Positions 1,242 to 62,863 of a stretch of 64,000 nucleotides of DNA are shown here, in pieces (position 1 is the first letter of the stretch; every line of letters begins with the position of its first letter). The notes below the pieces were generated by a model that saw only the letters and a program-made list of their open reading frames with translations, was not told the DNA's origin and made no database searches. Location of the stretch: NCBI GenBank assembly GCA_017470425.1, contig JAFUYT010000021.1, positions 124,001 through 188,000 of the forward strand. Reading direction: 5' to 3'. The stretch is from Bacteroidaceae bacterium (GTDB taxonomy: Bacteria; Bacteroidota; Bacteroidia; Bacteroidales; Bacteroidaceae). The translations under genes were made by a program, and so were the position numbers.

Positions 1242-3566
1242 CTATTTCACCATCACCTTGCGAGTGGAGCCATCGCTCATCTGCAAGATATTGATGCCGC
1301 GTTGCGGAGCCGTCAGACGGCGACCGCTCAGGTCGTAGCGGGCCACCACGGAGAGTGTCGGAGACTGGATGCCATCGACGGCATCGGGGCAGACGGGCAG
1401 TTCCTCGCGAGGCTGGCAGAGGATGCCAAGGAGGGGAAAGGAAGTAATATAACCTTGACGGCGGAGTGAATTCGTGATCCTTACAGATGCTACCTCCAAA
1501 ACATTATACACATCCGAGATGACCTGCACGCCCTCAAACAAGAGGACAGTGTCCACTTTTTCGCTTTCATACAGGAGGTCAATGTTACCGCCTGACATGA
1601 TACTAGTCTTCCCTACCCCTGTCTCTTCATCGAACGCTGCGACATACGTCAGATAGGAACGAATGCGATTGCGGTAGGACTGAAGCTCCAACCCATTGTC
1701 ATCCGTAAATGGTGTAGGATGCACGGGCGGCACGATGGCATAGATGTCGTAGGTGACATTCGGTACCATGTGCAGAGCGAAATAAGCAGAGGGATAAAGT
1801 GTCTGTACGCTAAACAGGTATCCATTCTCTACAGGAAGGCCCCATGCTGGATCTGCTGCAAACGGCTCGGCGGTCGTCTGGGTATCCGTGTTAATAGGCA
1901 GTTCATTGGCACCAACATAGTCGCTGGCGGGAATGAACGGCGACTGCAGGAACCAGTTGGTGAAGTTGCCGGCATCGAAACCGGTGGCCAAGTGTATCTC
2001 GCCGTTGATGCACTTCAGGACGGTGTCGTCGGGACGGTCATAGGCCCGGAAGTGGTCAGGCGTCATGTACTGCTTCAAGAGGTAGTCACGGAAAAGCTGC
2101 TTAAAGTCGTATCTGGATGTGCTCACCGGATTGCTGGTGTAGTACTGCGGATAGGCTTCCTCGATGATGGTGTTCCAGTCACCGTCGTAAACCACGACCT
2201 TTCCATCCTCCACGGTGCAGGACTCCTTGTCGTACATCGGTAGCACCTCTTCCACGTACAGTTCCTCTGTGGGTCGGTCGATGTCTGCGACCGTGATGCA
2301 GTTATTTGCAATGAGATTCTTCCACGGGGAATTAGTCTGCATCCGTTCTCTCGCGTAGGGGAAAACAGAAACCACACAGGGCTTTTCGTATGAACCTATA
2401 TTAGGCGCATTGTACGACCAAAACATTCCCGTCTCCGACATGCGCAGCGTCAACTCCTCTAACTGCGGGAAGTAGCATTTGTCCAATGGTGCCCACCAAG
2501 AATGTGGGAGCTCCAGCTGTCGGAGCTTCGAGAATTCTCCATCCAGGAAATAGCTGGTATCGTATTCGTCTCTATAGAACTCTTCACCTGTCTCGGGGTC
2601 TGTAAACATGAGTTCGTGCGTCACAAGCTTAGAATAGACACCCGCGGCGGGATAAGGCACCGTAAGGCGCTCCACCGTCGGCAGCACGGTCAGCAAATCC
2701 TTGGTTGCACGGCTGTAGAGCACCTTGCCGTCGTCTGAGGTGTAGCAGTAGGGATTATCGGCGGGCAAGGTGAGGCGGTCGAGGAGTCTGCAGCCATTGA
2801 AGGCCAGGATGTCAATGTCGCCTTGATAGTGGGCGAGGTCGATGGTGCGGATGGCCGTCCCTGCGAGCGCCTCTTTACCGATGCGCGTAATACCTGCAGG
2901 AAGCGCCACCTCTGTGATGCCATAGCAACCTTTAAGCACACCATCAGACAGTTCGGTGAGCCCTGCCGGAAGATGAATATTCTGAAGACGGGAACCGCTG
3001 AAAGCGTAGGCGCCGAGATAGGTGACCGCATCCGACAGCGGGAATGCACGCAGGTGGGTGCCGGCGAGGGCGTTGTCACCCACGTAGGTCAGGCGGGGCA
3101 GCTCGGCGCCGCCAAGGCTGTAGAGGGGTGTTCCACTGCAGAGGGAACTTTCCAGACGTTCCACGGTGGGAGGCAGGTTGAGATGTCCCATGACCGAGCA
3201 CTGTGCAAAGGCGCCTTCACCCATCGTCTTGACGTTGGGGGACAAGTTGATAAAGGTTGCATCGCAGTTCGCAAACGCATTGTTGCCGATGGCGGTGACG
3301 GTGGCGGGCATGGAAACGGCGGCCACAGGGCTGTCCTTGAATGCTTCGTCACCGATGGCCGTGACCGTATAGGCCGTGCCCTCATGGGTGACGGTTTCGG
3401 GGATGACGGCCAAAGCACCTTCGCCCAGAGTGCAGGCGGCGACACTCACCGTAGCGCTCCCCGTAGGCTGATAGCTGAAGTCCCCTTCAGTGAAGGCTTC
3501 CTGAGCCATGCTGCTCCAGGTCGTAGCGAGACCGAGCAGCAAAAGTGATAGATATCTTTTCATCAT
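1242..3566 (-). CDS. BspA-type leucine-rich-repeat surface protein with FAS1-triad C-terminal module
   Basis: This 774-residue exported protein has a signal peptide (MMKRYLSLLLLGLATTWSSMA). Roughly residues 60-340 are treponemal/BspA-type LRR_5 repeats (for example VTAIGDEAFKDSPV and LPAGITRIGKEALAGT). The central and C-terminal part (about 490-740) is not LRR. It contains VLKCINGEIHLATG, then TYDIYAIVPP and a VDTVLLFEGVQ segment, and this aligns by eye with the C-terminal half of the FAS1 lipoprotein at 61181-62863. It ends in a YDLSGRRL ... GINIL ... KVMVK tail. It is the third gene of an operon (gaps of 37 and 28 bp to the two FAS1 genes upstream). BspA-like LRR proteins usually act in surface adhesion. 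The fusion suggests that the first half of a FAS1 protein was replaced by LRRs. Confidence 0.85.
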   Translation of the reverse strand: MMKRYLSLLLLGLATTWSSMAQEAFTEGDFSYQPTGSATVSVAACTLGEGALAVIPETVTHEGTAYTVTAIGDEAFKDSPVAAVSMPATVTAIGNNAFANCDATFINLSPNVKTMGEGAFAQCSVMGHLNLPPTVERLESSLCSGTPLYSLGGAELPRLTYVGDNALAGTHLRAFPLSDAVTYLGAYAFSGSRLQNIHLPAGLTELSDGVLKGCYGITEVALPAGITRIGKEALAGTAIRTIDLAHYQGDIDILAFNGCRLLDRLTLPADNPYCYTSDDGKVLYSRATKDLLTVLPTVERLTVPYPAAGVYSKLVTHELMFTDPETGEEFYRDEYDTSYFLDGEFSKLRQLELPHSWWAPLDKCYFPQLEELTLRMSETGMFWSYNAPNIGSYEKPCVVSVFPYARERMQTNSPWKNLIANNCITVADIDRPTEELYVEEVLPMYDKESCTVEDGKVVVYDGDWNTIIEEAYPQYYTSNPVSTSRYDFKQLFRDYLLKQYMTPDHFRAYDRPDDTVLKCINGEIHLATGFDAGNFTNWFLQSPFIPASDYVGANELPINTDTQTTAEPFAADPAWGLPVENGYLFSVQTLYPSAYFALHMVPNVTYDIYAIVPPVHPTPFTDDNGLELQSYRNRIRSYLTYVAAFDEETGVGKTSIMSGGNIDLLYESEKVDTVLLFEGVQVISDVYNVLEVASVRITNSLRRQGYITSFPLLGILCQPREELPVCPDAVDGIQSPTLSVVARYDLSGRRLTAPQRGINILQMSDGSTRKVMVK

Positions 3567-3603
3567 GATGGATTCGTTCTTTTAAGCTTTGTGATTGCTG
3601 CGT

Positions 3604-5274
3604 TTACCATATATCTTCGGGCGTCGAGGGATTGTCATAGACCTCGCACGGACACCATTCGATGTAGTCCATATAGAACTGAAGGGTGGTATCGTTCATG
3701 CTATTCTTGACACGCAGGAAGTAGGTCTTGCCCGCCTCCAGATAGCCTCTCCAGACGATGCGGCGCAGACACCACTCTCCGCTGCGGAGTGGTGTAGCCG
3801 TTGCAGAAGCTCCTGACAAATATGCGTTGGGGCCTTTCATATAACCTCGCTCATAGAGTCGCAAATCGACGAGGCGGTTCTGCACGTCATCATCAACATC
3901 CTGAGACCAGCCGATGTTGCTCACGATGTTTCCAGTCCTAAAGCGCCTGTTCTTTCCTCCTATGCGGAGATCCAGTGGCAAACCTGTGGCTTGCAGGTTC
4001 TCCTTGTCTGAGCCGATAAAGAACTGGGCGATACCTCGTGCCCAGGAACTGGCAGAGACGCCAAAGCGAAGCTCGTACTCACCATTCTTGGGAACCGGCG
4101 GCAGCTGGAGCGTGAAATCATAACGCCCAACGACATTGAACTCATCGCCCTGGCAGTTCGACCAGCCGCGATCGAGTCCGCTCATATAATAGAACTGGGA
4201 ACCTGGCTCGATGGTCAGACGTTCGAAGTAAGGATAATCCTGCGTGACGGGGAAACCACGGGTTAGAGTACTTCCATCAGAATATTGGGTGAGCGGACGG
4301 CGCAAGCCGTTGTTCATCATCTCGGGCAACAGCGAGGCCACATCAAAACGCAGACGCTGAGTTCCTAACTGGTTCTGCACGTTCTCGGTATAGGCCAGCA
4401 GTTGCTGAAGAGGATAGATGAAGCCATTGACAACAGACACATAGGGATGTTCCTCCTGCGTCCTGTCCAAGACCATGATGCCGAGGTTCTCGTCGGCGCT
4501 CAGCGCATCGCCTATCAGCGGTCTGAAGTCGCCGGACTCGTGGTAGTCGTTGCGGTTGGGATCCCCGCCTGACGCTGCCGCAGTGAAGCGCCCGCGGCCA
4601 TTGCGAAGCTCAGGGAAGCGGTTGAGGAAGATGCCCATGCTCTCACGGCTCTCATAGATCTTCAGCAGGCGCGGCAGTCCGAGCGTCTGGTAGAACTCCT
4701 CCACGGGGATGGTGAAGTTCATGCCGGAAGTTTTCCAATAGTAGCCGTTCTCGTTGTAGTGAAACACGAGTTGCTCGGGCGACAGCTTTTCTGGAAGAAT
4801 ATGGTAGGTCGTGAACTGATTGATGATATTGTTCGGGTCAGCGTAGTTGTTGTCCGTAGTGGCTTGGGCATACAACCCGTGCGCGGTGATATAGCTCTTG
4901 ACATCCTCCACAGTGATGTTCGCTGCCGACTTACCCAGCAAGGCCTCCCAAACGACATCGGTCTCTGCGAAGATGGTGTAACCGTAGTTGCGGTGCAGGG
5001 GAATCGTACCAATCTGTTCCGTGGGATGCTGTGGGAGGTCTTCGAGTTGTCCGCTGCGGACTGCCTGCTCGTAGGCCTCATCCCGCCACTGGCTCAGCAC
5101 CTCATTGAGGCCGCAGGCCTCCACCAGGCGGGCAAAGACGGTGTAGTCCGGCGCATTGCGGAGTTCCTGATCCAAGGTGACGACGGGCTCCTCCATGGGC
5201 TCGTCGGGTTGCGCTACCGCCACCGTACTGACAGCGAGACAGAGCGCAAGAAGAATATAGGTTTTCTGTTTCAT
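3604..5274 (-). CDS. secreted FAS1 (fasciclin) protein with C-terminal carbohydrate-binding-like module
   Basis: I chose the ATG at 5274, because the longer frame runs into the upstream gene and the signal peptide starts here (MKQKTYILLALCLAVSTVAVA). The protein has 556 residues. A FAS1-type region begins with DYTVFARLVEACGLNEVL and continues through YGYTIFAETDVVWEALLG and INQFTTYHILPEKL. A second FAS1-like part follows. From about residue 370 there is a beta-sandwich-like module with GDEFNVVGRYDFTLQLPPVP, ELRFGVS, RGIAQFF and FYMDYIEWCP. The same module ends the FAS1 lipoprotein at 59074-61140. There is no lipobox, so it is probably soluble or surface-secreted. It lies 28 bp after the preceding FAS1 gene, in the same operon. 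Confidence 0.8.
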   Translation of the reverse strand: MKQKTYILLALCLAVSTVAVAQPDEPMEEPVVTLDQELRNAPDYTVFARLVEACGLNEVLSQWRDEAYEQAVRSGQLEDLPQHPTEQIGTIPLHRNYGYTIFAETDVVWEALLGKSAANITVEDVKSYITAHGLYAQATTDNNYADPNNIINQFTTYHILPEKLSPEQLVFHYNENGYYWKTSGMNFTIPVEEFYQTLGLPRLLKIYESRESMGIFLNRFPELRNGRGRFTAAASGGDPNRNDYHESGDFRPLIGDALSADENLGIMVLDRTQEEHPYVSVVNGFIYPLQQLLAYTENVQNQLGTQRLRFDVASLLPEMMNNGLRRPLTQYSDGSTLTRGFPVTQDYPYFERLTIEPGSQFYYMSGLDRGWSNCQGDEFNVVGRYDFTLQLPPVPKNGEYELRFGVSASSWARGIAQFFIGSDKENLQATGLPLDLRIGGKNRRFRTGNIVSNIGWSQDVDDDVQNRLVDLRLYERGYMKGPNAYLSGASATATPLRSGEWCLRRIVWRGYLEAGKTYFLRVKNSMNDTTLQFYMDYIEWCPCEVYDNPSTPEDIW

Positions 5275-5302
5275 CGTTGTAATGCTTTGAAGGTGACGAA
5301 GA

Positions 5303-7186
5303 TTAATAGGAGCGCAGCACGCCGTCGATCTGGTGGATGACACCCGTAGCGTAGCTCTGGATGACAAGATTATTAAGCGATGCCAATCCGACAGGAGAGA
5401 CTGAGGGGCCGTCCCCTGTACCGCCTTGATCTCTAATACATCTCACCTCGCGCACGAACATATTCTTATGCGCATCCACCACATGGCGGGTGTTGCCGTC
5501 CTCGCCAGTGACGGTCATCCGTCCGTTCCCCAGTCCCTGCACGCGCAATTTGGGTGCCTGTAACGTCTCCTCCAACACCAGCATAGAGTGATGTTCACGG
5601 TCAAAGGGCAGTTGGTCGGCAATCTCTATACCGAACTGGAAATGCGCTTTCACGAAAGCGGCAATGCGCGCCTGCTTCTTTTGAAGTGTAAGCTGCAGTT
5701 CCTGTGCTACGGCATCGTCCTCTGTCTCATAGATTTGTTCCTGAAGCGCCTCAAGCTCTTCAGCCAGCGGTAACCCATGAAGGGCGGCCTCCTGCTCGAT
5801 GGCTTCATTGGTGGGCACGAACAGCGTGAACGGGATATTCGTCAGGAAATCCAGCCCTTGCGACAACCCGCCGATCTTCGACGTGAAGAGTTGTGGTATG
5901 CTACAGAGATCAAAGAACCGCTGGTAGGGATTCGACTCACCCTCGGCAAGTTCCTCGCCAGAGAGTACATTATATATAGTGCGGGGCGTAGCTTCCAAGG
6001 TGTTATCGATGCAGTAGATGGTTCCGTTGCCCTTGGTACGTTGGTTGGTGATATTGGCACGAACCAGACTGGCAGAGCTACCGCCGCTCATGGCTGTGCG
6101 CCCGTGTGCCTGATTCCAGAGATGGTAAGCACCCTGCACGCCGACCACCTTTCCGCCCTCCCGGATGACACGCACGGGACTGCCATCCAAGGCGAGGTAG
6201 TAGTCGTTACCACTATTCAGGCCGTTGGCAAAGTCTTCAGGACGGTTATGCAGAATTGTGTGTGAGCGGAGCAGCGTGGCGAGGTATGTTGTGAGCTGCC
6301 ACTGTGACATTTGTTCCGTATTAAACATATTCGCCACTTCACCTGTTAAGAAATCATATGAATAGCATATTCTACCTGTAGTGAACGGGAATGAGCCTGA
6401 CCACATGGTCAACTTAAAAGCCTGCGGTTTCCGAGATACATAGCTGACGATATTGGGCACATACTGAAGGGCCTCATCCGATGGCATGAGCAACGAGATA
6501 TTGTGATTGGTGCCGTCGGGAATCATCGCATAGAAATCTTCGTGGAGATAATTGGTAGAGCCGGACTGGCCATCAAAAAAGCTCCAATAGTATATCAGCG
6601 AGGATTCTGCAAGACGTGACAGATAGCCACCGATGCCCTGCACAGAGTCTTGAAAGTGAATAAGCTGTGTGGATGCCATCGGGATGGTGTAGTGCTGACC
6701 ATCGGCGGTGATGAGCTCGTAGGTTCCGATAGGGCTGGAGAAGCGCAGTTCGCCAGGCTCCGCCATCCAATAGCTCTTACCATCGATGTCGAAGCGTAAG
6801 GGATACGTATTGTTCCATTCCAAAGTACTCATAGCAGGCGCTTGATAACCGCTCATGTCTGGGCTGGTATAGCTGGCAGGCGAGTTCAGGAACTTAATAC
6901 AGCTCAAATCCTCATAACCGATGGGGAAGCTATAGACTGGCGCCCCGTCCTTGTCGGTGAGCACGCCAAAGGATGGCCGAAGCTCATAGCCACTGGATTT
7001 ACGGCTCTGAGGCCAGTAGAGCGTAACGCCGTCTGTGAGCGGGACGATTTTCTTGTCCCCATAGCGGTCAGCTATCTCCATGAGTACTGCGTTCTGGTCT
7101 GGGTGGTACACATCTTGCGCCCACCCCGCTTGGCCGATAGCCAGCCATACGAAGGTCAACAGACACTGAATGGTTTTCTGTTTCAT
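5303..7186 (-). CDS. secreted FAS1 (fasciclin) protein, first gene of the LRR/FAS1 operon
   Basis: The start is taken at the ATG at 7186, which begins a signal peptide (MKQKTIQCLLTFVWLAIG, cleavage near WAQ). The upstream Met in the same frame has no export signal. The protein has 627 residues. FAS1-like segments include ISLLMPSDEALQYVPNIV and IPFTLFVPTNEAIEQEAAL. The C-terminus ends in a strand-rich part with GNGRMTVTGEDGNTRHVV and the hallmark VIHQIDGVL. The order NGTIYCIDNTLEATPRTIYN, then FFDLC, then HQIDG matches the lipoprotein at 51269-53890. FAS1 domains mediate adhesion or protein-protein contact; no catalytic role is implied. It is probably cotranscribed with the next two genes. Confidence 0.8.
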   Translation of the reverse strand: MKQKTIQCLLTFVWLAIGQAGWAQDVYHPDQNAVLMEIADRYGDKKIVPLTDGVTLYWPQSRKSSGYELRPSFGVLTDKDGAPVYSFPIGYEDLSCIKFLNSPASYTSPDMSGYQAPAMSTLEWNNTYPLRFDIDGKSYWMAEPGELRFSSPIGTYELITADGQHYTIPMASTQLIHFQDSVQGIGGYLSRLAESSLIYYWSFFDGQSGSTNYLHEDFYAMIPDGTNHNISLLMPSDEALQYVPNIVSYVSRKPQAFKLTMWSGSFPFTTGRICYSYDFLTGEVANMFNTEQMSQWQLTTYLATLLRSHTILHNRPEDFANGLNSGNDYYLALDGSPVRVIREGGKVVGVQGAYHLWNQAHGRTAMSGGSSASLVRANITNQRTKGNGTIYCIDNTLEATPRTIYNVLSGEELAEGESNPYQRFFDLCSIPQLFTSKIGGLSQGLDFLTNIPFTLFVPTNEAIEQEAALHGLPLAEELEALQEQIYETEDDAVAQELQLTLQKKQARIAAFVKAHFQFGIEIADQLPFDREHHSMLVLEETLQAPKLRVQGLGNGRMTVTGEDGNTRHVVDAHKNMFVREVRCIRDQGGTGDGPSVSPVGLASLNNLVIQSYATGVIHQIDGVLRSY

Positions 7187-48750: not shown

Positions 48751-48859
48751 AAGCGCAAGGAAAAAATCGCGCTAAGGGTGTTTTTTCTGCGCAAAGGGGC
48801 TGTCGAAGGGCCTCGGAAGTCTAAAAATAGAGGCGTAAGAAAAACTTTGTCGGAAAATG

Positions 48860-48891
48860 TTTGCGCGAATGGGCATAAGGTTGTATCTTTG
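48860..48891 (+). promoter_or_regulatory. promoter of the zincin-like gene at 48911
   Basis: TTTG (48860-48863), 20 bp, TATCTTTG (48884-48891), with the ATG 19 bp later. The leader would be very short. Confidence 0.65.
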
Positions 48892-48910
48892 TTGCATAAA
48901 ACTGACCGAA

Positions 48911-51268: not shown

Positions 51269-53890
51269 ATGATTCATATCATCAGGCACCGGGCGCGCCG
51301 CCTCTTCCGCTCAGCATGTCTCCTGCTGCTGCCTCTCACGGCAAGCGTCTCGTGCAGTGAGAAGGATGAGCTTATGGACGAGCCCGAATGGCTGGGCAAC
51401 AGCATCTATGAGCGCTTGCAGGAGGAAGGAACCTACAACTACACCCTCCGACTCATCGAGGATCTGGGACAGCAGCAGGTGCTGAGCCAGACGGGCTCCA
51501 AGACCCTCTTCGTGGCCTCCGACGACGTCTATGACGCCTTCTTCCAGAAGAACGACTGGCACGTCAGCCGCTACGAGGGCCTCTCCGCCGGACAGAAGAA
51601 GCTCCTGCTGAACAGCGCAATGGTCAACAACGCCTATCTGCTGGAGCTCCTGAGCAACGTCAGCGGCACACCCCCGCAGAAGGGAATGTGTATGCGCCGC
51701 GCCACCTCGGCATCGGTCTTCGACAGCATCTCACGCATCATGCCCGCAGAGATGCCCAACACGCCCTTCTGGGCGAAGTATAAGGAGCGCCCCCGCGGCA
51801 TCGTGCTCCTGCGCGACAACACCGCCAAGCCAATGATCCACTTCCTGCCCGTCTTCATGCGCACGAACCTCATCACCGGCAACGACCTGGCCACCCTCAC
51901 CAACGGAGCATCCACTTCGATCACCGACGCGTGGGTCAACGGCCGCAAGGTCATCCAGAGCGACATCGTCTGCAAGAACGGATACATCCAGAAGATCGAC
52001 GGGCTCGCCACTGCGGCCGACAACATGATGGAGATCGTGCACAGCCATCGGAACATGTCCCGCTTCGCATCCCTCATGGACCGCTTCTCGGCACCTTACT
52101 ACGACCGCGCCGCCACCGAGGAGTACAACCGCCTCTTCAACAACCAGGACTCCGTCTTCACCCTCAAGTACTTCTCGCAGAACAGCAACACCAGCGAGTA
52201 CGGAGGTTCCGAGGGAGGAGAGCTCACCACAGACCCCGACGGCAACGTCGTCGATGCCTACCTGAGTTTCGACCCCGGATGGAGCCAGTACATGTACACC
52301 AACACCGCCGGGCGCGACCTCCACTACGATGCCGGTGCACTCCTCGTGCCGAGCAACGACGCGCTCGACCACTGGTGGAACAACGACGGACGCGTGCTGC
52401 AGGATATGTACGGAGCCTGGGAGAACGTGCCGATGAAGGTCCTCGTGAAGATGCTTGACATCAACCTGATACGCTCCTTCACGCAGACCGTGCCCTCGAA
52501 ATTCCGTAACATCGTCGATAACACCACGAAGGTGCCACTGGGCATCACCACCGCACACGTGGATTCCTGCTTCATGGGATGCAACGGCGTCGTCTATCTC
52601 CTCAACCGCGTCTTCACGCCCGCGTCCTACAGTTCCGTTTCCTTCCCCGCGCTCGTCAACGAGCAGACGATGAACATCATCTACTGGGCCATTGAGAAGC
52701 TGGAGTTCGAGCCCTACCTCAACTCAATGGACTCCTACTACAGCTTCATCATACCCACCAACACGGCCATGCTCACCTACGTGGACCCCTGCACCTACGG
52801 CTCCACCCTCTCCACGCTCTATGAGTTCTACTACGACGCCGACCGCAAGAGCGTGGGCGCACGACGCTACAGCTACGACCTCGCCACCCACCAGAAGGTC
52901 GAGGGCGGCACACCCCTCAACGACGCCACCGATGCCCAGGTGCAGAACCGCCTGCGCGACCTCCTCGACAACCTCATCGTCATCGGCAACATCGAGGACG
53001 GCCACCGCTACTACCGCACCAAGGGAGGCAGCGTCATCAGCGTAGATCGCGCCGGACAGGAGGGCACCATGACCATCAGCGGAGGCTTCCAGATCGAAGA
53101 GGACAGCCCCGTCACCGTCGCCACCATCTACGACCAGACCGAGAACGGCAACGGCAAGAGCTACGTCGTGGAGCAGACGCTGCCCATGACCAGCCGGCGC
53201 TCCCTCTACTCACTGCTCAACGGCCGCAATGGCTGCGAATCCTTCTTCTCGCTGCTCCTCAACGGCGGCTCCGCCAACACGCTCCTGAAGGCACGCATGA
53301 GCAGCTACACCTGCGCCGACTACAACTGCTCCCTCTTCGATGCCTACAACTACACCATCTATGTCCCCGAGAACGCCACCATCGACCAGCTCCACCAGCA
53401 GGGCGTGCTGCCCACCTGGAGCGACTACGAGGCGCTCGCAGACCCCACCTCGCGCTTCAGCGAGATCGCGCAGAACGCCACCCTCCTCAAGCAGGCGCGC
53501 AACATCGTGGCCAACCGCATCCTCAACTTCCTGAAGTACCACATACAGGACAACTCCGTCTTCATCGGAGGACAGCCCACTGCGGGCGTGAAGTACGAGA
53601 CATCGACGCTCAACCCCGTCAACAAGCGCTTCTTCAGCCTCACCGTCAGCGCCGACGACAGCCAGCTCACCATCACCGACCAGCTCGGCAACCAGCGCTC
53701 CGTAGTCACCGCAGGCGGTAACTACAACCTCGTGGGACGAGAGTACTGGATCCAGAACGCACAGAACGTGAACAACACGCAGCTCTACAACGCCTCGGAT
53801 CTCGTCGTACACCAGATCGACGGGCCCCTCTTCTACGAGCCCCAGCAGCTCACCAAATGGGAGGACGAGGTGATGGCGCTGATTCCCTGA
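51269..53890 (+). CDS. FAS1 (fasciclin) lipoprotein, first gene of the SusCD locus
   Basis: This 873-residue protein has a lipoprotein signal (RSACLLLLPLTASVSC, lipobox SVSC). It carries several FAS1-like units: GSKTLFVASDDVYDAFFQKN, AGALLVPSNDALDHWWNND, YYSFIIPTNTAMLTYVDPC and YTIYVPENATIDQL. The C-terminal part has GNGKSYVVEQTLPMTSRRSL, FFSLLLNGG, QLTITDQLGNQRSVV and VVHQIDGPLF, matching the secreted FAS1 protein at 5303-7186. It probably sits on the outer-membrane surface near SusCD, 38 bp before susC. The likely role is binding or organising the glycan-capture complex; FAS1 domains have no known catalysis. Confidence 0.82.
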   Translation: MIHIIRHRARRLFRSACLLLLPLTASVSCSEKDELMDEPEWLGNSIYERLQEEGTYNYTLRLIEDLGQQQVLSQTGSKTLFVASDDVYDAFFQKNDWHVSRYEGLSAGQKKLLLNSAMVNNAYLLELLSNVSGTPPQKGMCMRRATSASVFDSISRIMPAEMPNTPFWAKYKERPRGIVLLRDNTAKPMIHFLPVFMRTNLITGNDLATLTNGASTSITDAWVNGRKVIQSDIVCKNGYIQKIDGLATAADNMMEIVHSHRNMSRFASLMDRFSAPYYDRAATEEYNRLFNNQDSVFTLKYFSQNSNTSEYGGSEGGELTTDPDGNVVDAYLSFDPGWSQYMYTNTAGRDLHYDAGALLVPSNDALDHWWNNDGRVLQDMYGAWENVPMKVLVKMLDINLIRSFTQTVPSKFRNIVDNTTKVPLGITTAHVDSCFMGCNGVVYLLNRVFTPASYSSVSFPALVNEQTMNIIYWAIEKLEFEPYLNSMDSYYSFIIPTNTAMLTYVDPCTYGSTLSTLYEFYYDADRKSVGARRYSYDLATHQKVEGGTPLNDATDAQVQNRLRDLLDNLIVIGNIEDGHRYYRTKGGSVISVDRAGQEGTMTISGGFQIEEDSPVTVATIYDQTENGNGKSYVVEQTLPMTSRRSLYSLLNGRNGCESFFSLLLNGGSANTLLKARMSSYTCADYNCSLFDAYNYTIYVPENATIDQLHQQGVLPTWSDYEALADPTSRFSEIAQNATLLKQARNIVANRILNFLKYHIQDNSVFIGGQPTAGVKYETSTLNPVNKRFFSLTVSADDSQLTITDQLGNQRSVVTAGGNYNLVGREYWIQNAQNVNNTQLYNASDLVVHQIDGPLFYEPQQLTKWEDEVMALIP

Positions 53891-53928: not shown

Positions 53929-56900
53929 ATGAGATATAGGATTTTCCTTCTTTCACTTTTCCAGCTGATCGTCCTCACCGCCACCGCACAGGTCAAGGCC
54001 GTCCACGGCACCGTGCGCGACGAGTACGGCGAGCTGCCCGGAGCCTCCGTCTGCGAGGTCGATGGCACCGGACGTATCATCGAGGCCACGATCACCGACA
54101 TGAACGGTAACTTCTCCATGCGCATACGCAACCCGAAGGACAAGCTGCGCATCAGCTACGTGGGATGCAAGCCACAGCTGCTGGCCATCAAGACCGAGCT
54201 GGTCAACGTCACCCTCGTCTCGCAGACCATGCAGGAGGTCACCGTCACGGCACAGAAGAAGCTCAACAGCGGAGGACTGGCCATCCCTGAGCGCGAAATC
54301 TCGTTTGCCACGCAGACCATCGACATGAAGGAGTTCGAGGGACTCGGCATGACCACCGTCGATGAAGCACTGCAGGGCCGTATCGCCGGACTCGACATCA
54401 TCGCCAACAGCGGTAACCTCGGCGCAGGCACCACGATGCGACTGCGCGGAGCATCCAGCATCTCCACACTCACCAACCCCAACCCACTGATCGTCGTCAA
54501 CGGCAACACCTGGAACGTTGATATGAACAACTTCGACGTCACCAATGCCAACGACGAGCAGTTCGCACAGCTCCTCAACGTCAATCCCGAGGACATCGCG
54601 TCCATCACCGTCCTCAAGGATGCCGCCGCCACAGCCATCTACGGATCGCAGGGCGCCAACGGCGTCATCGAAATCACCACCAAGCGCGGAGCTAAGGGAG
54701 CACCCAAGCTGACCTACTCCCTCCGGCTCACCGGCACCTACCAGCCACCTGGCTACAAGATGCTCAACGGCGACGATTACACCATGCTCCTCAAGGAGAG
54801 CTACTTCAACCCCGAGCAGAACGACAACGCATCGAACCTCGCAGAGCTGAACTACGACCCCACCTTCTCCGAATACGAGCAGTATAACAACAACACCGAC
54901 TGGGTCGATGCCGTCACGCAGTGGGGACTCCGGCAGAACCACTACATCTCCGTCACCGGAGGCGGCGAGAAAGCCACCTTCCGCATCTCCGGAGGCTACG
55001 ACCACGAGACAGGTTCCGTCATCAAGCAGAAGCAGAACCGCTTCGCTACGCGACTGGCATTGGACTACTACGTCTCTGAGCGCATCAAGATCTCCACCAA
55101 CTTCGCACTCACCTACACCGACACACAGCGCAACTACGACGACCTCCTCGCCATCGCCTACAAGAAGATGCCCAACATGAGCATCTACGAGCAATATCCC
55201 GTAGGCCATCCCCTCCAAGGACAGGACACCGACCGCTACTACACCATGCTGCAGTCCGCCCCCAATGTATTCAAAGACGACCAGCGGGCATACGTCAACC
55301 CCGTGGCATCCGCACACCTGGCCACCAACGACGACCGCACCTACGACATCACCCCCGAGCTGGAAATCAACTACAAGCTCCTCGGCACCGACGACGACAG
55401 CCACCAGCTCAACTGGCAGGGGCGCGTCTATATGAACGTCTTCAACGAGTACGTCGATAAGTTCTACCCCAAGGAGCTCGTCACCGTCAGCTGGAACAAC
55501 GGCGTCAACAACGCCTACACCGGTTCCTCGAAGAGCGTGGCCTTCAACACGAAGCAGACGCTCACCTTCATCCCAAGCTTCAAGAACAAGGACCACTCGC
55601 TCATGGCCATGGGACGCTTCGAGCTCACCAGCGGCAGCAGCAACGGACAGGGCACCGACGCCACCAAGTTGCCCTCCGGAGGCATCACACTACCCACCGC
55701 TGGCGGCAAGGTCACAGGCATGAACAGCTCCTTCAGCCAGTGGCGATCGATGTACTACACCTTCTCCACGCACTACGCCTACAAGAGCCGCTATATGCTC
55801 GACGTGTCGCTGCGCGTCGATGGCACCACCAAGTTCGGTCCCGACCGCCGCTGGGGCTACTTCCCCGCCGCCTCGCTCCGATGGAATATCATCGACGAGA
55901 AATGGATGCAGCCCACCCGCAGCTGGCTCTCCATGCTCGCCCTGAGAGGCAGCTGGGGACAGGTCGGTAACCAGCCCAACCGCGACTACCTCTACGAGAG
56001 CATCTACAGCAGTGCACCACGCTATCTCGACATGGGTGCCATGCAGCCCGACAACATCCGCCTGACCAACCTTAAGTGGGAGACCACCGCCACATGGGAT
56101 GTCGGACTCGACCTCTCGTTCTTCGACGACCGCCTGCGCCTGCAAGCCGAATGGTACCACAGCAAACGCCGCGATATGCTCATGGAGAACGTCAGCATAC
56201 CCTCCAGCACAGGCTACTACGCCCTCGCCTACAGCAACGTGGGCTCGATGACCAATATCGGATGGGAGCTCAACCTGCAGACGAACAAACTCATCCGCAA
56301 AGGCAAGTTCTTCGCCGACCTCAACTTCACCTTCGGCAACAACCGCAACGAGATCCTGACGATGGACGAGACCGTGCTGAAGACGCTCAACTCCAAGTTC
56401 AACTACGAGAACCGCGAAGTCCTCAAGCGCGTGCAGCTCAACAACCCCTTCGGCGCCATCTACGGTTTCCGCTACAAAGGCGTCTATGAATACCAGTATG
56501 AGACGTTCGCCGCCATGACGCCTCAGGAGCGCACCGACTTCGTCAGTGCAGGGCATACCGCGCCCTACGTGCTCAGCGAGACAGGCGAGATCGTGACCGA
56601 CGACAAGGGTCAGCCCGTGCGCATGATTTACAACTACTCCCACGACAACACCGGCAAGAACTATATGTTCAACGGCGGCGACGCCATCTACGAGGACGTG
56701 AACCACGACGGCAACATCAATGCCCTCGACATCGTCTATCTCGGCTCCTCACTGCCCAAGCTCACTGGAGGCTTCGGCTTCACGCTGAACTACGGGCGAT
56801 GGAAGCTCAACACACAGTTCAACTACCGCGTAGGCAACAAGATCCTCAACCTGGCACGACTCGATGCCGAGGCCATGAGCACCAACAACAACCAGAGCAA

Positions 56901-57252
56901 GGCCGTCAACTACCGATGGCGCAGGGAGGGCGACGTGACGACCATCCCACGTGCCATGTACGGCTCCTCGACCAACTACAACACGCTCGTCAGCGACCGC
57001 TTCGTGGAGGACGGCACCTTCCTGCGGCTGAACTACCTGCAGCTCTCCTACTCCTTCGACCCGAAGGTCATCAAGCGCTTCCTCGGACTCGCACGCCTCA
57101 GCCTCTACGCCAGCGCCAACAACCTCTTCATCCTCACCCGCTATAAGGGCGTCGATCCCGAGGTGAGCTACAGCGGCTACGGCGCTGCCGTCGATGGCGG
57201 ACAGACACCGCGCGCCAAGTCCTTCACCTTCGGCCTCACCGTAGATTTCTAA
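53929..57252 (+). CDS. susC: SusC/RagA-type TonB-dependent outer-membrane transporter
   Basis: This is a 1107-residue porin. It has a signal peptide (MRYRIFLLSLFQLIVLTATAQ). A carboxypeptidase-D-like domain is at about 22-100 (VHGTVRDEYGELPGASV, ISYVGCKPQ). The plug is at about 105-240 (EVTVTAQKK, VDEALQGRIAGLDIIANSGN, MRLRGASSI, VLKDAAATAIYGSQGANGVI). A beta-barrel follows, ending SFTFGLTVDF with the terminal Phe needed for membrane insertion. TonB energises import of glycan captured with SusD. Its C-terminus is complete. SusD follows 3 bp later. Confidence 0.95.
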   Translation: MRYRIFLLSLFQLIVLTATAQVKAVHGTVRDEYGELPGASVCEVDGTGRIIEATITDMNGNFSMRIRNPKDKLRISYVGCKPQLLAIKTELVNVTLVSQTMQEVTVTAQKKLNSGGLAIPEREISFATQTIDMKEFEGLGMTTVDEALQGRIAGLDIIANSGNLGAGTTMRLRGASSISTLTNPNPLIVVNGNTWNVDMNNFDVTNANDEQFAQLLNVNPEDIASITVLKDAAATAIYGSQGANGVIEITTKRGAKGAPKLTYSLRLTGTYQPPGYKMLNGDDYTMLLKESYFNPEQNDNASNLAELNYDPTFSEYEQYNNNTDWVDAVTQWGLRQNHYISVTGGGEKATFRISGGYDHETGSVIKQKQNRFATRLALDYYVSERIKISTNFALTYTDTQRNYDDLLAIAYKKMPNMSIYEQYPVGHPLQGQDTDRYYTMLQSAPNVFKDDQRAYVNPVASAHLATNDDRTYDITPELEINYKLLGTDDDSHQLNWQGRVYMNVFNEYVDKFYPKELVTVSWNNGVNNAYTGSSKSVAFNTKQTLTFIPSFKNKDHSLMAMGRFELTSGSSNGQGTDATKLPSGGITLPTAGGKVTGMNSSFSQWRSMYYTFSTHYAYKSRYMLDVSLRVDGTTKFGPDRRWGYFPAASLRWNIIDEKWMQPTRSWLSMLALRGSWGQVGNQPNRDYLYESIYSSAPRYLDMGAMQPDNIRLTNLKWETTATWDVGLDLSFFDDRLRLQAEWYHSKRRDMLMENVSIPSSTGYYALAYSNVGSMTNIGWELNLQTNKLIRKGKFFADLNFTFGNNRNEILTMDETVLKTLNSKFNYENREVLKRVQLNNPFGAIYGFRYKGVYEYQYETFAAMTPQERTDFVSAGHTAPYVLSETGEIVTDDKGQPVRMIYNYSHDNTGKNYMFNGGDAIYEDVNHDGNINALDIVYLGSSLPKLTGGFGFTLNYGRWKLNTQFNYRVGNKILNLARLDAEAMSTNNNQSKAVNYRWRREGDVTTIPRAMYGSSTNYNTLVSDRFVEDGTFLRLNYLQLSYSFDPKVIKRFLGLARLSLYASANNLFILTRYKGVDPEVSYSGYGAAVDGGQTPRAKSFTFGLTVDF

Positions 57253-57255: not shown

Positions 57256-59016
57256 ATGACCAACATGACATACAATCACGCCAATAACAGCCGGAACATT
57301 CTGAAAAGGAACAGGCGCACACGCACGTGGGCAGCCGCTGTGCTCCTCGCACTGCAAGCACCCGTGCTCACCTCCTGCGGCAACTTCCTGGAGATAGCGC
57401 CCCTGGAGACCATCGTGCTGGAGAAGTTCTGGAACGAAGAGACCGATGTGGAGAACGTCGTCGCTGGATGCTACGCTGCCATGCAGGACCAGACGGTCGT
57501 CAGCCGCATGATGGCATGGGGAGAGTTCCGGTCCGACAACATCGTCGGCGGAACGGGCATTGAGAACAACCTCGACCTCTCCAATATCTTCAAGGAGAAC
57601 ATCAACGCCAGCAACAGCTTTCTGAAATGGGGGGAGTTCTACAACATCATCAACCGCTGCAACACCGTACTCTACTACGCACCGTCGGTCGCAGAGAAAG
57701 ACCCCAACTACACACAGAGTGAGCTCCGCGCTACGGAGGCGGAGGTGACCGCCATACGCGCACTCATGTACTTCTACCTCATTCGCACGTTCCGCGATGT
57801 TCCCTACGTCACCGAGCCCTATCTCGACGACAACCAGCAGCTCGCCATCCCCGCAACACCGTTTGCCGAGGTCCTCGGCCACCTCATCAGCGACCTCGAG
57901 CGCGTGCAGGACTACGCCGTACGCAAGTACCCCACCACGAAGAACTACTACCAGCGCGGACGCATCACCCAGGATGCCATCCACGCCATGCTCTGCGACA
58001 TGTACCTCTGGCAGCAGGACTACCAGAACGCCGTGCGCTACGCCGACATGGTCATCCAGGCGAAGACCGCCGACTACGAGGCAGAGCTCAACCGGATGTC
58101 AGGCGTCATCTCCGCCAACCAGCAGATGATCGACGGCTACCCCATCATCAGCGATGCCTACGCCACCGGCAACTACTACGGCAACGCCTTCATCGAGATA
58201 TTCAGCGACGGCAACAGCCGCGAGAGCATCCTCGAGCTCATCTATATGGAGGATGACCAGATGCCCGCCAACGGAGCCGTCAGCAACTACTACGGCAACA
58301 GCGAGAACACCGTCGGCAGCGTACGACCCGCAGACTTCCTGATGAGCGACATCAACGATGAGCTCTTCACCGTCTTCGAGAACAAGTACGATGCACGATT
58401 CTACGAGAATATGCAGCCCGTCACGGGTTCCAAGACACTCGCGGGCATCAACAAATACGCTAACAGAAGCGTGATGATCAACCTGGGAAAGGCGGAACTC
58501 GAGGGCACCTACGGATCGGCCTATGCCCGCGACCACTGCCACGCCAACTGGATCCTCTACCGCCTCACCGACGTGATGCTGATGAAGGCAGAAGCCCTCG
58601 TGGAAATGGGCTCCCCAGAGCAGATGCAGCAGGCCTTCGACATCGTGAACACCGTCTATAAACGCTCCAACTGCTCCGCCACCGACAAGAACCTCGACCC
58701 CGCACGCTACTCCGTCACCAACCAGGATGTCATGCGCGACCTGGTACTTCTGGAGCGGCAGCGTGAGCTGATGTTCGAGGGCAAACGGTGGTACGACCTC
58801 GTCCGGCGCTCCCTCCGCGACGGCAACACCGGCAAGCTCGCCGGGCGCGTAGCCCTCAAGGGCTCCGGCGGCAGCACAGCCATCTCCAGCAAGCTCTCGA
58901 GCATGGACGCCATCTTCTGGCCCTACCACATCGACGAGCTCGACGTCAACGAGTATCTCACCCAGAACCCCGCCTTCGGCAGCGGTGAGAACAGCAGCAT
59001 TGAACTCACGCAGTAG
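57256..59016 (+). CDS. susD: SusD/RagB-type glycan-binding lipoprotein
   Basis: This 586-residue protein has a lipoprotein signal (AAAVLLALQAPVLTSCGNFL). SusD features are FLEIAPLETIVLEKFWNEET, CYAAMQDQTV, the TPR-like helices with RATEAEVTAIRALMYFYLIR, FRDVPYVTEPYLDD, MLCDMYLWQQDYQNAVRYAD, RLTDVMLMKAEALVEM and the C-terminal LLERQRELMFEGKRWYDLVR. It caps the SusC barrel at the cell surface and binds the oligosaccharide. The N-terminal Met at 57256 leaves a long positively charged leader; a later Met in the same frame is not obvious, so this start is kept. Confidence 0.95.
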   Translation: MTNMTYNHANNSRNILKRNRRTRTWAAAVLLALQAPVLTSCGNFLEIAPLETIVLEKFWNEETDVENVVAGCYAAMQDQTVVSRMMAWGEFRSDNIVGGTGIENNLDLSNIFKENINASNSFLKWGEFYNIINRCNTVLYYAPSVAEKDPNYTQSELRATEAEVTAIRALMYFYLIRTFRDVPYVTEPYLDDNQQLAIPATPFAEVLGHLISDLERVQDYAVRKYPTTKNYYQRGRITQDAIHAMLCDMYLWQQDYQNAVRYADMVIQAKTADYEAELNRMSGVISANQQMIDGYPIISDAYATGNYYGNAFIEIFSDGNSRESILELIYMEDDQMPANGAVSNYYGNSENTVGSVRPADFLMSDINDELFTVFENKYDARFYENMQPVTGSKTLAGINKYANRSVMINLGKAELEGTYGSAYARDHCHANWILYRLTDVMLMKAEALVEMGSPEQMQQAFDIVNTVYKRSNCSATDKNLDPARYSVTNQDVMRDLVLLERQRELMFEGKRWYDLVRRSLRDGNTGKLAGRVALKGSGGSTAISSKLSSMDAIFWPYHIDELDVNEYLTQNPAFGSGENSSIELTQ

Positions 59017-59066
59017 ATGGACAATGGATAGTGGACAATGGACAGTTGACAATTGACAGTTAGAAT
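59017..59066 (+). repeat. GGACAATGGACA/TTGACAATTGACAG short repeats
   Basis: Imperfect units of (A/T)GGACAATGGA and TTGACAATTGACAG fill the SusD-FAS1 spacer. A related TGTCAATTGTCCATTT lies between slyD and aroC (26409-26424). Confidence 0.55.
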
Positions 59067-59073
59067 CAGAAAC

Positions 59074-61140
59074 ATGCACACCAACGATATGACAACACAG
59101 AGGAACAACCGCCTGCGCGGGATGCTGAAGGTGCTCGGCGCCGCCTGCATCATGCTACAGGCTGCAACCTTCTTTTCCTGTAGCGACGAACCCGACAGCG
59201 AGCACTTCTACACCTTCAAGGGGCAAATGATGAGCGAGTACCTCTACAGCCACGAGCAGTTCAGCCAGTTCACAGCACTGGCAGAGCGCACGGGGATGAT
59301 GAAGCTACTGGCCACCTACGGAGCCTACACCTGTTTCCCGCCCACCAACGAGGCCGTGGACGTATTCCTACAGAAACGGGGACTCAGCAGCATCGACCAG
59401 CTCTCTTGGGAGGACTGCGACACACTCGTGCGCACGCACCTCGTGGATAACATCTATACCACCGCCGACATGGACGATGGCGTGCTCTCCACAGCCAACA
59501 TGAACCGCCGCTACATCGAGGTCACCCACGGGACAGACGAGAACGGCAACGCCGTCGTATTCCTCAACGGAACATCGCATATCATCTTCACACTGCAAGA
59601 TGACTCCGTCGAGAACGGCATCGTACAGCCCATCACGGAAGTTCTCGAGAGCAGCAACCGCATGATCATCGACGTGATGAAGCTCAACCCGAACATCTCG
59701 CTCTTCGTGCAGGCGTTCGAGGCCACCGGGCTGCGTGATTCCTTCTATCAGTTCAAGGACGCCACCTGGGATCCCGACGAATATACCCGCTACCGCTACA
59801 TCTCACACGTGAACAAGGAGACCGCCACCGTACCCGATGAGAAGCGGACGGGATTCACCGTCTTCACACCCACCGACGAGCTCCTGCGCACCAAGTACGG
59901 CATCACGACCCTGGAAGGGCTCTATCAGAAAGCCTGCGAGATCTACGACCCCATCTACCCCGAGGATGCCGGAGCGGCCTACCACGACTTCAACCACATC
60001 AAGGACCGCCGCAACCCGCTCTTCCGGCTCCTGGCCTACCACGTGCTGACGCGCGATGCCAAAGGCTGGAACTACCTCACACCCTACAAGGACGTAGGCA
60101 TCCTCACGACGGTGATGAACCCCGTCGATTGGTATGAGACGATGCTCCCTCACACGCTGATGAAGTTCGAGCGCCTCACAGTCCGCAAGTGGGCGGGAGG
60201 CAGCACCGTGGGACAACGATATATCAACCGCCGCTACGACGACCTCTTCCAGATTCCCGGAACCATGATACAACCGACCGTGGAGACGGAATACAAGCAG
60301 GATGCCCTCAACGGACGCTACTTCTATGTCGATGACCTGCTGGCCTTCGACGAGACCACGCGCGACATCGTCCTCAACGACCGCATCCGCATGGACTTCT
60401 CCACCATCTTCCCCGAACTCATGACCAACGACATACGCCTCAATGAGCGCAACGGAGGCATGAAGCAGCAGGATCCCGACTACGACGAGACTGGCAAATT
60501 CGGCCGCAACTATTACTTCCCCAACGGCTACCTGAAGGGCGTCACCATCAATGAGGGATGCCACTTCGTATATCGCCGTCCCCACGACTACTACGACAGC
60601 TACGAGGGCGACGAGATGAACCTCTTCGGCGACTTCGACATCACGTTCAAGATTCCACCCGTGCCCTACGAGGGAGAATGGCAGCTCCGCCTGGGCTTTG
60701 CTGCTGAAGGCACACGCGGCGTGGCGCAGTTCTATTTCGACGAAGTGCCACAGGGCATACCCCTTGACATGACCAAGCAACTCAACGACCCCTCCATCCT
60801 CGGTGCCGACTGGAAGGCGGACTACAACAGCATGTCCACCGTCGATCTCTCTACCGACCAGAAGGTGCTCAAGAACAAGGGCTACTACCGAGGCGCTGCA
60901 GGCGGCTACCGCTATGCGCAGGGAAGCACCCAGCAGACCATCTTCGCCACACAGCCTCACACCATCCGCATGGTCATCTGCACCACGCACATCGACCCCT
61001 CACAGGACCACTTCCTCCGCATCCGTTGCGTATCAGCCAAGCAAGGCAACGACAACGAGTTCATGCTCGACTACCTGGAGTTGGTGCCCAAGAGCGTCTA
61101 TGGCGTCACCGACGAAGGCGAAATGGAAAGTATGCTTTAA
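59074..61140 (+). CDS. FAS1 (fasciclin) lipoprotein with C-terminal carbohydrate-binding-like module
   Basis: The start at ATG 59074 (MHTNDMTTQ) or 59089 is possible; both lead to the lipobox ATFFSC. The protein has 688 residues. The first FAS1 unit has FTALAERTGMMKLLATYGAY and TCFPPTNEAVDVFLQKRG; the second has LFVQAFEATGLRDSFYQF and TGFTVFTPTDELLRTKYGI. From about 480 a module follows with GDEMNLFGDFDITFKIPPVP, WQLRLGFAAEG, GVAQFYFDEVPQGIPLDMT and FMLDYLELVP. This is the same module as in the secreted FAS1 protein at 3604-5274. It is a surface lipoprotein of the SusCD locus. Confidence 0.83.
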   Translation: MHTNDMTTQRNNRLRGMLKVLGAACIMLQAATFFSCSDEPDSEHFYTFKGQMMSEYLYSHEQFSQFTALAERTGMMKLLATYGAYTCFPPTNEAVDVFLQKRGLSSIDQLSWEDCDTLVRTHLVDNIYTTADMDDGVLSTANMNRRYIEVTHGTDENGNAVVFLNGTSHIIFTLQDDSVENGIVQPITEVLESSNRMIIDVMKLNPNISLFVQAFEATGLRDSFYQFKDATWDPDEYTRYRYISHVNKETATVPDEKRTGFTVFTPTDELLRTKYGITTLEGLYQKACEIYDPIYPEDAGAAYHDFNHIKDRRNPLFRLLAYHVLTRDAKGWNYLTPYKDVGILTTVMNPVDWYETMLPHTLMKFERLTVRKWAGGSTVGQRYINRRYDDLFQIPGTMIQPTVETEYKQDALNGRYFYVDDLLAFDETTRDIVLNDRIRMDFSTIFPELMTNDIRLNERNGGMKQQDPDYDETGKFGRNYYFPNGYLKGVTINEGCHFVYRRPHDYYDSYEGDEMNLFGDFDITFKIPPVPYEGEWQLRLGFAAEGTRGVAQFYFDEVPQGIPLDMTKQLNDPSILGADWKADYNSMSTVDLSTDQKVLKNKGYYRGAAGGYRYAQGSTQQTIFATQPHTIRMVICTTHIDPSQDHFLRIRCVSAKQGNDNEFMLDYLELVPKSVYGVTDEGEMESML

Positions 61141-61142
61141 CC

Positions 61143-61178
61143 ATCAACTATCAACTTTCAACTATCAACTCTCAACTA
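61143..61178 (+). repeat. tandem ATCAACTTTCAACT repeat before the third FAS1 gene
   Basis: ATCAACTATCAACTTTCAAC and the bases after it fill the whole spacer to the ATG at 61181. The core is identical to the repeat before slyD (25801-25841). Confidence 0.7.
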
Positions 61179-61180
61179 CC

Positions 61181-62863
61181 ATGCCCTCCAAATATGCCCT
61201 CCTCCGTTGTCGTGTAGGCTGCGTATGTTGCGCAGCAATCCTCGCTCTCGCCGCCTGCAACGATGCCTGGAGCGACCACTACGACGCCACCTCCACCACC
61301 CAAGAGAGCGGCACTCTGTGGGATGCCATCGCCGCACAACCAGACCTCTCCAACTTCGCACGCGTAGTGGAGGCCTGCGGCTACGACATCCTCCTCAGCG
61401 GCAGCCAGGCCTACACGGTCTTCGCGCCCACCAACGACGCCCTCACCACCGCCGAGGCCGACGTCCTCATAGAGGAATTCCGGCAGCAGCAAGCGGCCGG
61501 CACACGCGTCAACGACAACACCGTCGTCAGGCAGTTCCTTCAGAACCACATCGCACTCTACAAATGGCCGGTCTCATCCATCACCAATGACAGCATCACG
61601 CTGATGAATGATAAGTACGCCGTCCTCACGCCCTCCACCCTCGCAGGTCAGCAGCTGCTCTCCACCAATGCCCTCTACAGCAACGGACTGCTCTTCACGC
61701 TGGGGCACCAGCTCGACTACTTCCCCAACGTCTTCGAGTACCTAGGCCACGACGATGACCTGGACAGCGTCTATCGGTTCCTGAACAGCTTCAGCGTCTA
61801 TGAGTTCAACGATGCCAAGAGCGTGCCGGGCGAGATTGTCGATGGACAGACCGTCTATCTCGACTCCGTCTCGGAGCTCCGCAACACGGTCCTCCAGCGC
61901 TACGGCCTCATCAACTCCGAGGATAGCACCTACTGGATGCTCTGCCCCACCAACAGCGAGTGGCGCCGACTGGTCGGCGAGTACGAACCGTTCTTCAACT
62001 ACGCCAACAGCGTCAACCAGCGCGACTCCCTGATCTACGCCAACACCCGCCTGGCCATCATCAGCGGAGCCTTCTTCAGCCGCACGATCAACTCCGACGA
62101 GGCCTTACGCGACTCCGCCGTCTCCACCCGAGCCATCTCCCACTCCTTACGACGCATGACGGGTTGGGAAGATGCCTACTACACCTATTTTAAACCTTAC
62201 GCACAAGGCGGCGCCTTCTATGGCACCGAGGACATCACGTGCAGCAACGGCCACGTGCTCAAGTCCCCCGCTTGGGGCATCTCCAAGTTCGAGACCTTCG
62301 CGCAGACCATCAAGGTCGAAGCAGAAAACATCCTGGCACAGGACACCATCATCGATGCTGTGGATCCGCTCATCGTCCGCGAAGTGGCCAGTAACAACCC
62401 CTTCTACGGCAAGGTGTCAGGCAACAGCTTCGTGGAAGTGCAACCCGACCCCGCCACCGCACAGGTCACCGTGCAGTACCGCGTGCCGAACATCCTCTCC
62501 GGCATGAAATACGACATCTACGCTGTCTTCGCGCCGGCAACAGCCTACGACACACTGGCGGTCGATGAGACCAAGCGCCCGAACATCATCCTGCCCACCC
62601 TCCAGTGGCTCGACCAGAACGGCAAGGAAGGACGCAACAACCGCATGAGGACGAAGACCGTGAACACCGCCGTCATGGACACCATCCAGTTGGTCACCGG
62701 GCAGACTTTCCCCACCAGCTCCTATGGGCTGGCTGAGGAGCAGGTGAAGCTGCGCATCAAGTCCAACATCCAGAGCAACCAGACGACCACCCACTCCGGA
62801 ACCCTTCGCATCGACTGCATCATCTTCCGGCCTACCGAGCTGGGCGGCTTCGCGGCACAATAG
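61181..62863 (+). CDS. FAS1 (fasciclin) lipoprotein, third of the triad
   Basis: The start is at ATG 61181 (MPSKYALLRCRVGCVCC); the much longer upstream frame is an artefact overlapping the previous gene. The protein has 560 residues, with lipobox LALAAC. FAS1 unit one has LSNFARVVEACGYDILL, YTVFAPTNDALTTAEADV and VVRQFLQNHIALY. Unit two has YLDSVSELRNTVLQRYGLIN and YWMLCPTNSEWRRLVGEYE. The last 200 residues have ITCSNGHVLKSPAWG, MKYDIYAVFAPAT, VMDTIQLVTGQTFPTSSYG and LRIDCIIFRP. The last module matches the LRR protein at 1242-3566. It completes the FAS1-SusC-SusD-FAS1-FAS1 set. Confidence 0.83.
   Translation: MPSKYALLRCRVGCVCCAAILALAACNDAWSDHYDATSTTQESGTLWDAIAAQPDLSNFARVVEACGYDILLSGSQAYTVFAPTNDALTTAEADVLIEEFRQQQAAGTRVNDNTVVRQFLQNHIALYKWPVSSITNDSITLMNDKYAVLTPSTLAGQQLLSTNALYSNGLLFTLGHQLDYFPNVFEYLGHDDDLDSVYRFLNSFSVYEFNDAKSVPGEIVDGQTVYLDSVSELRNTVLQRYGLINSEDSTYWMLCPTNSEWRRLVGEYEPFFNYANSVNQRDSLIYANTRLAIISGAFFSRTINSDEALRDSAVSTRAISHSLRRMTGWEDAYYTYFKPYAQGGAFYGTEDITCSNGHVLKSPAWGISKFETFAQTIKVEAENILAQDTIIDAVDPLIVREVASNNPFYGKVSGNSFVEVQPDPATAQVTVQYRVPNILSGMKYDIYAVFAPATAYDTLAVDETKRPNIILPTLQWLDQNGKEGRNNRMRTKTVNTAVMDTIQLVTGQTFPTSSYGLAEEQVKLRIKSNIQSNQTTTHSGTLRIDCIIFRPTELGGFAAQ

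Follow-up and report, generated by a model that had tools for sequence, protein, structure and literature searches.

Two FAS1 gene sets in one window

We examined a 64,000-nucleotide stretch of DNA from a Bacteroidaceae bacterium (GenBank assembly GCA_017470425.1, contig JAFUYT010000021.1, positions 124,001 to 188,000; the window hereafter), in which two sets of three genes encode proteins related to fasciclin (FAS1) proteins (Table 1). The right set is one copy (L015) of a seven-gene operon with the order A-SusC1-SusD1-B-C-SusC2-SusD2, in which three FAS1 proteins, A, B and C, are encoded together with two SusC/SusD pairs, and it contains the SusC/SusD pair by which SusCD-type polysaccharide utilization loci (PULs) are recognized. 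An earlier note, made from the letters of the window, had described the right set as interleaved with SusC and SusD, which is correct but incomplete: it missed the second SusC, which begins at 62909, the SusD2 past the window edge, two further operons of the same genome, and the moves of B out of the operon together with its amplification. The left genes follow one another in the reading order A, B, C, separated by 28 and 37 bases. Genes of these SusC and SusD families are absent from the window outside the right operon and from the 20 kb across the left edge (L014), and over that span the claim that the left set stands without SusCD is borne out.

Table 1. Genes of the two FAS1 sets, with positions in the window (SusD2 is given on its contig).
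Gene	Position	Strand	Features
Left A	5303-7186	-	FAS1 protein, secreted; corresponds to C-terminal half of operon A (hhalign 100%, 2.5e-67)
Left B	3604-5274	-	Secreted; second FAS1-like part and operon B C-terminal module, without first FAS1
Left C	1242-3566	-	BspA-type leucine-rich repeats, then operon C C-terminal module, then sorting-tail-like end (by eye)
Right A	51269-53890	+	FAS1 protein; gene 1 of the seven-gene operon
SusC1	53929-57252	+	TIGR04056, 715 bits
SusD1	57256-59016	+	PF07980 and PF14322
Right B	59074-61140	+	FAS1 lipoprotein; C-terminal module without Pfam family
Right C	61181-62863	+	FAS1 lipoprotein; C-terminal module without Pfam family
SusC2, first part	62909-64000	+	Crosses window edge; second pair assigned by homology
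SusD2	C18:190262-192010 (L015)		Beyond window, after SusC2

Right A, B and C all exceed the curated cut-off of the Pfam Fasciclin family (PF02469), left A barely passes it (22.9 bits against a cut-off of 22), and left B and left C do not reach it. Left B has no Pfam match above any cut-off, and left C matches BspA-type leucine-rich repeats (LRRs). The earlier note had held that the FAS1 part of left C was replaced by such repeats plus a secretion tail; the repeats stand, and the tail resembles a sorting tail by eye but has no TIGR04183 match at E<=0.1. Loss of sequence is not confined to this third protein: left B is without its first FAS1 domain, and left A has lost about the first half of operon A in model coordinates. 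Fasciclin is the only Pfam family that recurs among 45 homologues of B and 45 of C, and the strong PDB profile matches of both are FAS1 proteins, the best being periostin and TGFBIp.

The left and right proteins pair one-to-one

The pairing had been proposed from shared C-terminal motifs, including VIHQIDGVL, which resembles a general FAS1 end motif and is by itself no proof. Direct BLASTP comparison of left with right gives 3e-11 for A and 3e-28 for B, and just 0.018 for C. The C pair, weak when compared directly, is closed by a third paralogue, C31_C, which bridges the two (7e-8 to left C and 3e-21 to right C); left B is likewise 50% identical to C31_B over 540 residues.

We then have a profile-profile matrix (hhalign) of five left-type sets against the operon families, from whose alignments secreted sets were excluded. 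On its diagonal, A/A scores 100% (2.5e-67), B/B 100% (1e-139) and C/C 97.9% (5.9e-13). The best off-diagonal match, secreted B against operon C (92.9%, 3.7e-7), covers 85 columns of the FAS1 part; secreted B against operon A follows at 74.4%, and the remaining pairs reach at most 26.5%. Sequence-profile scores on the diagonal are 173-247, 434-533 and 15-33 bits for A, B and C, against no more than 8.3 bits off it. Because both comparisons are diagonal, the pairing exceeds generic FAS1 likeness, which we rule out as its sole cause. Judged by these profiles, left A, B and C pair specifically and one-to-one with right A, B and C, and their C-terminal parts are related to one another rather than merely as similar as other FAS1 proteins, so the proposal of the earlier note survives the profile check that it had itself suggested.

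A widespread operon with two SusCD pairs

Two further complete operons lie in the same genome (L012 on contig C31 and L013 on contig C29). In this genome, which is 72% complete, the trio thus occurs four times, as three operons with two SusCD pairs each and as the left set. We examined 83 loci, comprising the best 80 of 171 matching stretches among named genomes, mainly from rumen Prevotellaceae and Bacteroidaceae, with Paraprevotella, Prevotella and Xylanibacter, and three loci of the window's own genome. Cultured commensals with the operon include Paraprevotella clara (L084) and P. xylaniphila (L081). All seven families are present in 49 of the 83 (two being L012 and L013), and in every one of the 49 they lie in identical order on one strand. 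Among the remaining 34, some are truncated where the contig or locus ends, and others have B, or A with B, but no pumps.

Within the genus, the profile of the B C-terminal module matches 137 of 139 genomes. At the level of the family, 204 of 301 genomes, from 18 of 30 genera, have a member of the C family; for the order the count is 36 of 393 genomes, from 28 of 207 genera, and both counts include the window's genome. Among 40 further loci picked around C matches, 36 have both SusC families and 28 have A, B and C together. Three of the four without both SusC families (L131, L149 and L158) lie at contig ends; in L138 the SusC1 side is absent inside the contig and SusD1 is partial. The complete gene order also turned up in at least eight further families of Bacteroidales. 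B or A has been relocated within the locus in L123, L124, L126 and L132, and the operon is without B in L129, L153, L154 and L161.

In the operon the lipobox Cys is invariant in 45 of 45 C rows, and it is conserved at 90% or more in a 45-row B alignment that includes left B; by eye, it is absent from left A, B and C. For B and C, the description of the right set as lipid-anchored and the left set as not anchored agrees with the conserved columns and the reading by eye. Anchors were judged from these Cys columns and by eye, and a lipobox pattern search was not relied on because upstream start codons make the pattern unreliable.

Operons of Prevotella sp. RGIG4424 are close relatives of the right operon (84% identity for B, 82% for SusC1 and 79% for A). 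The C31 operon, by contrast, groups with the genus, and so does the left set, which shares a contig with the right operon. This odd affinity reflects either horizontal transfer or a mixed assembly. Locus L064, titled Roseburia sp. NALB_7823_13 (a Firmicute), carries the present Bacteroidales operon in a form nearly identical to those of L065 and L066 and is probably a wrongly binned contig.

Genes around the operon

Ten operon neighbours were scanned. They include a GH2 glycoside hydrolase after L022 and another after the C31 operon, a GH3 with a CBM6 domain, a GH30, a GH88 and a protein with a glycosidase core; the rest are a protein with LamG and ricin-type lectin domains, a DUF5013 protein, a DUF6055 protein and a hybrid two-component regulator. 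Glycoside hydrolases follow SusD2 in several genera; those after operons of relatives are GH2, GH3, GH30 and GH88. For the C31 operon and these relatives, such a neighbourhood looks like the setting of a PUL.

SusCD importers of peptides are also known, and the operon might take up peptides or glycopeptides instead of plain glycans. The DUF6055 gene after the right operon has a metalloprotease-like HELGH motif by eye, and one B gene outside the operon adjoins an M6 peptidase. However, glycoside hydrolases lie beside operons and make up four of the ten scanned neighbours of such B genes, and we consider peptide import unlikely.

The gene before the right operon (48857-51232) encodes a secreted protein with an HEGIH motif and no Pfam family; it scores 22.6 bits with TIGR04183, near the cut-off of 23 for this type IX secretion system sorting domain, and a relative, recognized by eye, precedes the operon in L094. 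After left C, on the same strand, lies a gene for a small secreted protein of 141 residues (692-1117) with a sorting-tail-like end.

Trios without pumps

Sets of the left type, with A, B and then an LRR-bearing C, are present in five genomes, those of the window, L038, L040, L061 and L096, and the left proteins of the window are 37-63% identical to those of L038, L040 and L061. In 5 of the 139 genomes of the genus, with at most seven candidates scored per genome, the left-type C profile has matches that span its LRR part as well as its C-module part. A second type has the order C-A-B (L109, L162 and L164, and the A-B part only in L163); by eye, its proteins have signal peptides without a lipobox, and A and C carry a different N-terminal segment. 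In L098 an A gene adjoins a gene for a 1063-residue fusion of C and B, made up of the C module (residues 47-219), a middle that looks LRR-like by eye and the B module (585-1063). A survey of the kind proposed in the earlier note thus finds the three modules in Bacteroidales both with and without SusCD, and its conserved FAS1 triad holds up as a pattern of occurrence, seen without pumps in five left-type genomes, four of the C-A-B or A-B type and one with the fusion.

In a tree of B (139 rows, 7 of them secreted, with L162-L164 left out), all five left-type B group in a single clade, L109 lies among the B genes unlinked to an operon, and L098 is isolated on a long branch; the starred branches force three changes. 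In a tree of A (86 rows), L098 groups with the left type, and L109 is the sister of operon A from the same genome; two changes are forced. The C-A-B type arose separately from the left type, and, stated carefully, these trees indicate that SusCD-free trios arose at least two times. The recurrence of the trio without pumps and without membrane anchors suggests that it is a unit of its own.

It is very improbable that the left set is a decaying remnant without function. The left type is rare, and L097 (G029) holds a broken left-type C with no A or B, which is a decayed trio, but the three frames are open in five genomes, and this, with the 37-63% identity for three of them, suggests selection.

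A more serious alternative is that A, B and C are merely co-inherited, as separate FAS1 binding or adhesion proteins of one operon, and that the left set is a reused fragment giving secreted adhesins and no complex. FAS1 domains are known in adhesion proteins, such proteins as periostin and TGFBIp are the best PDB matches here, left C bears BspA-type repeats, and unlinked B exists apart from A and C. Nevertheless, the same three modules were kept in pump-free sets at least twice over, and C and B are fused in L098, so that we find co-inheritance alone rather doubtful.

What the pump-free sets have lost

B begins at model position 203-213, and so without its first FAS1 domain, in all ten distinct SusCD-free sets (the window, L038, L040, L061, L096, L098, L109, L162, L163 and L164). 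Every one of the 97 operon rows and the 43 unlinked rows has the domain. These counts exclude rows truncated at contig or locus ends and include a few duplicate loci, and some 'unlinked' rows are tandem second copies inside operons. Left-type A retains about model positions 484-907 of 934 whereas C-A-B-type A retains 44-906, which shows that A does not always lose its N-terminal part. A C-terminal E-D-[ILMVT]-W, as in the B gene at 3604-5274, ends 38 of 42 unlinked B, 11 of 12 rows in which B adjoins A but SusCD is lacking, and 26 of 91 B of operons; it might serve as a tag for docking or export.

PorU, the type IX sortase, is encoded in 9 of 9 tested genomes with SusCD-free sets. The window's genome has two PorU matches with identical scores (G000:C12:69889-73164 and G000:C25:34482-37757), perhaps a duplicated contig piece in the assembly.

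B outside the operon

We counted unlinked B in 35 genomes of the genus, using 55 of 63 C rows after 8 weak or fragmentary ones were dropped, and skipping 3 of the 55 from genomes without listed B coordinates. Eleven genomes with B-less operons only have 5-24 unlinked B matches (median 8), and 21 with B beside C have 0-7 (median 1); two are mixed and one is without C. 'Unlinked' here includes secreted B and a few fragments; two of the 24 matches in G003 are short fragments, and of the two C genes of G099 one is part of a secreted trio. Direct reading covered ten of the 11 B-less operons (L161 and L165-L173), and these ten form one clade in a tree of SusC1 (FastTree), so their genomes are not independent. 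In this tree B was lost from the operon in three places: the ten-operon clade, L153/L154 and L129. The tree also took in nine SusC2 rows of B-less operons and one of L174, which form a separate clade and are not counted.

Outside the genus, G149 has four and G163 seven B genes on contigs other than that of the operon, and in G709 one B lies about 83 kb away, while a partial B match is close to another, weaker match to C. It does not hold as a rule that unlinked B always accompanies a B-less operon, given G176 and G196 (C, no B) and G084 (seven B, no C).

Ten neighbours of unlinked B, hand-picked as mostly large genes on the same strand and not a random sample, comprise two GH2, one GH27, one GH78, three CotH proteins, one M6 peptidase and two proteins without a family. 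The CotH-kinase proteins adjoin unlinked B in L062, L057 and L118.

In operon B the C-terminal module is the best conserved region, with mean identities of 75.6, 53.4 and 63.9% against 67.0, 51.8 and 60.9% for the first FAS1. When unlinked copies within one genome are compared, the C-terminal module stands at 46.1% against 51.6% for the first FAS1, and at 49.2% against 50.5%; this apparent shift between operon and unlinked B is modest. The relocated, multiplied B and the conservation pattern fit a tentative reading, which we hold at well below even odds, that B is an interchangeable receptor subunit of a shared import machine, and that A-SusCD-C-SusCD would accept different B proteins in trans with the first FAS1 as a plug. 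Its basis is that B has gone from the operon in at least three lineages, one of which has 5-24 mostly full-length unlinked B, several beside different glycosidases.

Discussion

The explanation that we favor, to which we would give a probability of about 55% as a whole, is that the right set represents a glycan-uptake operon that is widespread in Bacteroidales and encodes two SusCD pumps and three FAS1 lipoproteins, and that the left set is a secreted derivative of that trio. The derivative would have lost both pumps, the lipid anchors and the first FAS1 of B, and in left C the FAS1 part would have been exchanged for LRRs. We think it most likely that A, B and C bind one another through their C-terminal parts, which probably also bind a plant glycan. 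The first FAS1 of B most likely docks B on the pump or the membrane side, since every anchored B that was read keeps this domain and every pump-free trio that was read has lost it. On this account the operon would encode a glycan-uptake machine at the cell surface, with a trio that can also be separated from the pumps. That A, B and C form a physical complex is a good hypothesis from the gene data, and the C-B fusion in L098 is the single direct hint of contact.

Several observations weigh against this explanation. The two direct neighbours of the right operon that were scanned are a DUF6055 protein and a protein without a Pfam family, and neither is a known glycosidase. The most distant loci (L136-L141) keep the gene order, yet the C-terminal modules of their B and C align partly or not at all. 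In G176 and G196 operon C is accompanied by no B at E<=1e-20, and B is thus not a constant member. Lastly, the tails of left-type C look similar by eye but have no TIGR04183 match at E<=0.1 in any of the five proteins, which makes the export route of the secreted trio unsure.

The nearest known systems share parts of this arrangement, as far as the available excerpts of their descriptions go. The utilisomes for levan and dextran in Bacteroides thetaiotaomicron are surface lipoproteins assembled on SusCD (PMC7618045); they resemble the present system in joining surface lipoproteins with SusCD for glycan uptake, but they have one SusCD type and non-FAS1 partners where we find two pairs and three FAS1 proteins, and the complex proposed here is hypothetical. 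PUL-XylL, a xylan locus of Bacteroides ovatus, likewise has two SusC/D pairs and surface glycan-binding proteins in a single locus; its excerpt names no FAS1 trio, whereas A, B and C lie around and between both pairs in a fixed order (PMC4491172). The DUF1735 proteins of PULs are anchored spacers with varying C-termini, and so share with our proteins an anchored N-terminal part, varying C-terminal modules and multiplication within genomes, but they have an Ig-like fold instead of FAS1, and the word 'fasciclin' is absent from that paper (PMC11216935). The system described here thus differs from all three by its FAS1 trio, its fixed order around two pump pairs and its pump-free derivatives. Searches of the open-licence literature, together with passages of PMC7661554, PMC6032426, PMC10199937 and PMC4891872, turned up no account of this operon; in the legend of a Gramella figure, a FAS1 protein is listed as part of a PUL.

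In the usual description of SusCD uptake, one pump pair works with surface binding proteins of its own; the operon reported here, spread over many gut and rumen Bacteroidales, joins two such pairs with three FAS1 proteins. The repeated pump-free trios and the fused protein indicate which of these parts belong together, and the domain lost each time, the first FAS1 of B, gives a docking hypothesis that can be tested. If B does prove exchangeable, it would illustrate how a diet can be broadened with no duplication of pumps.

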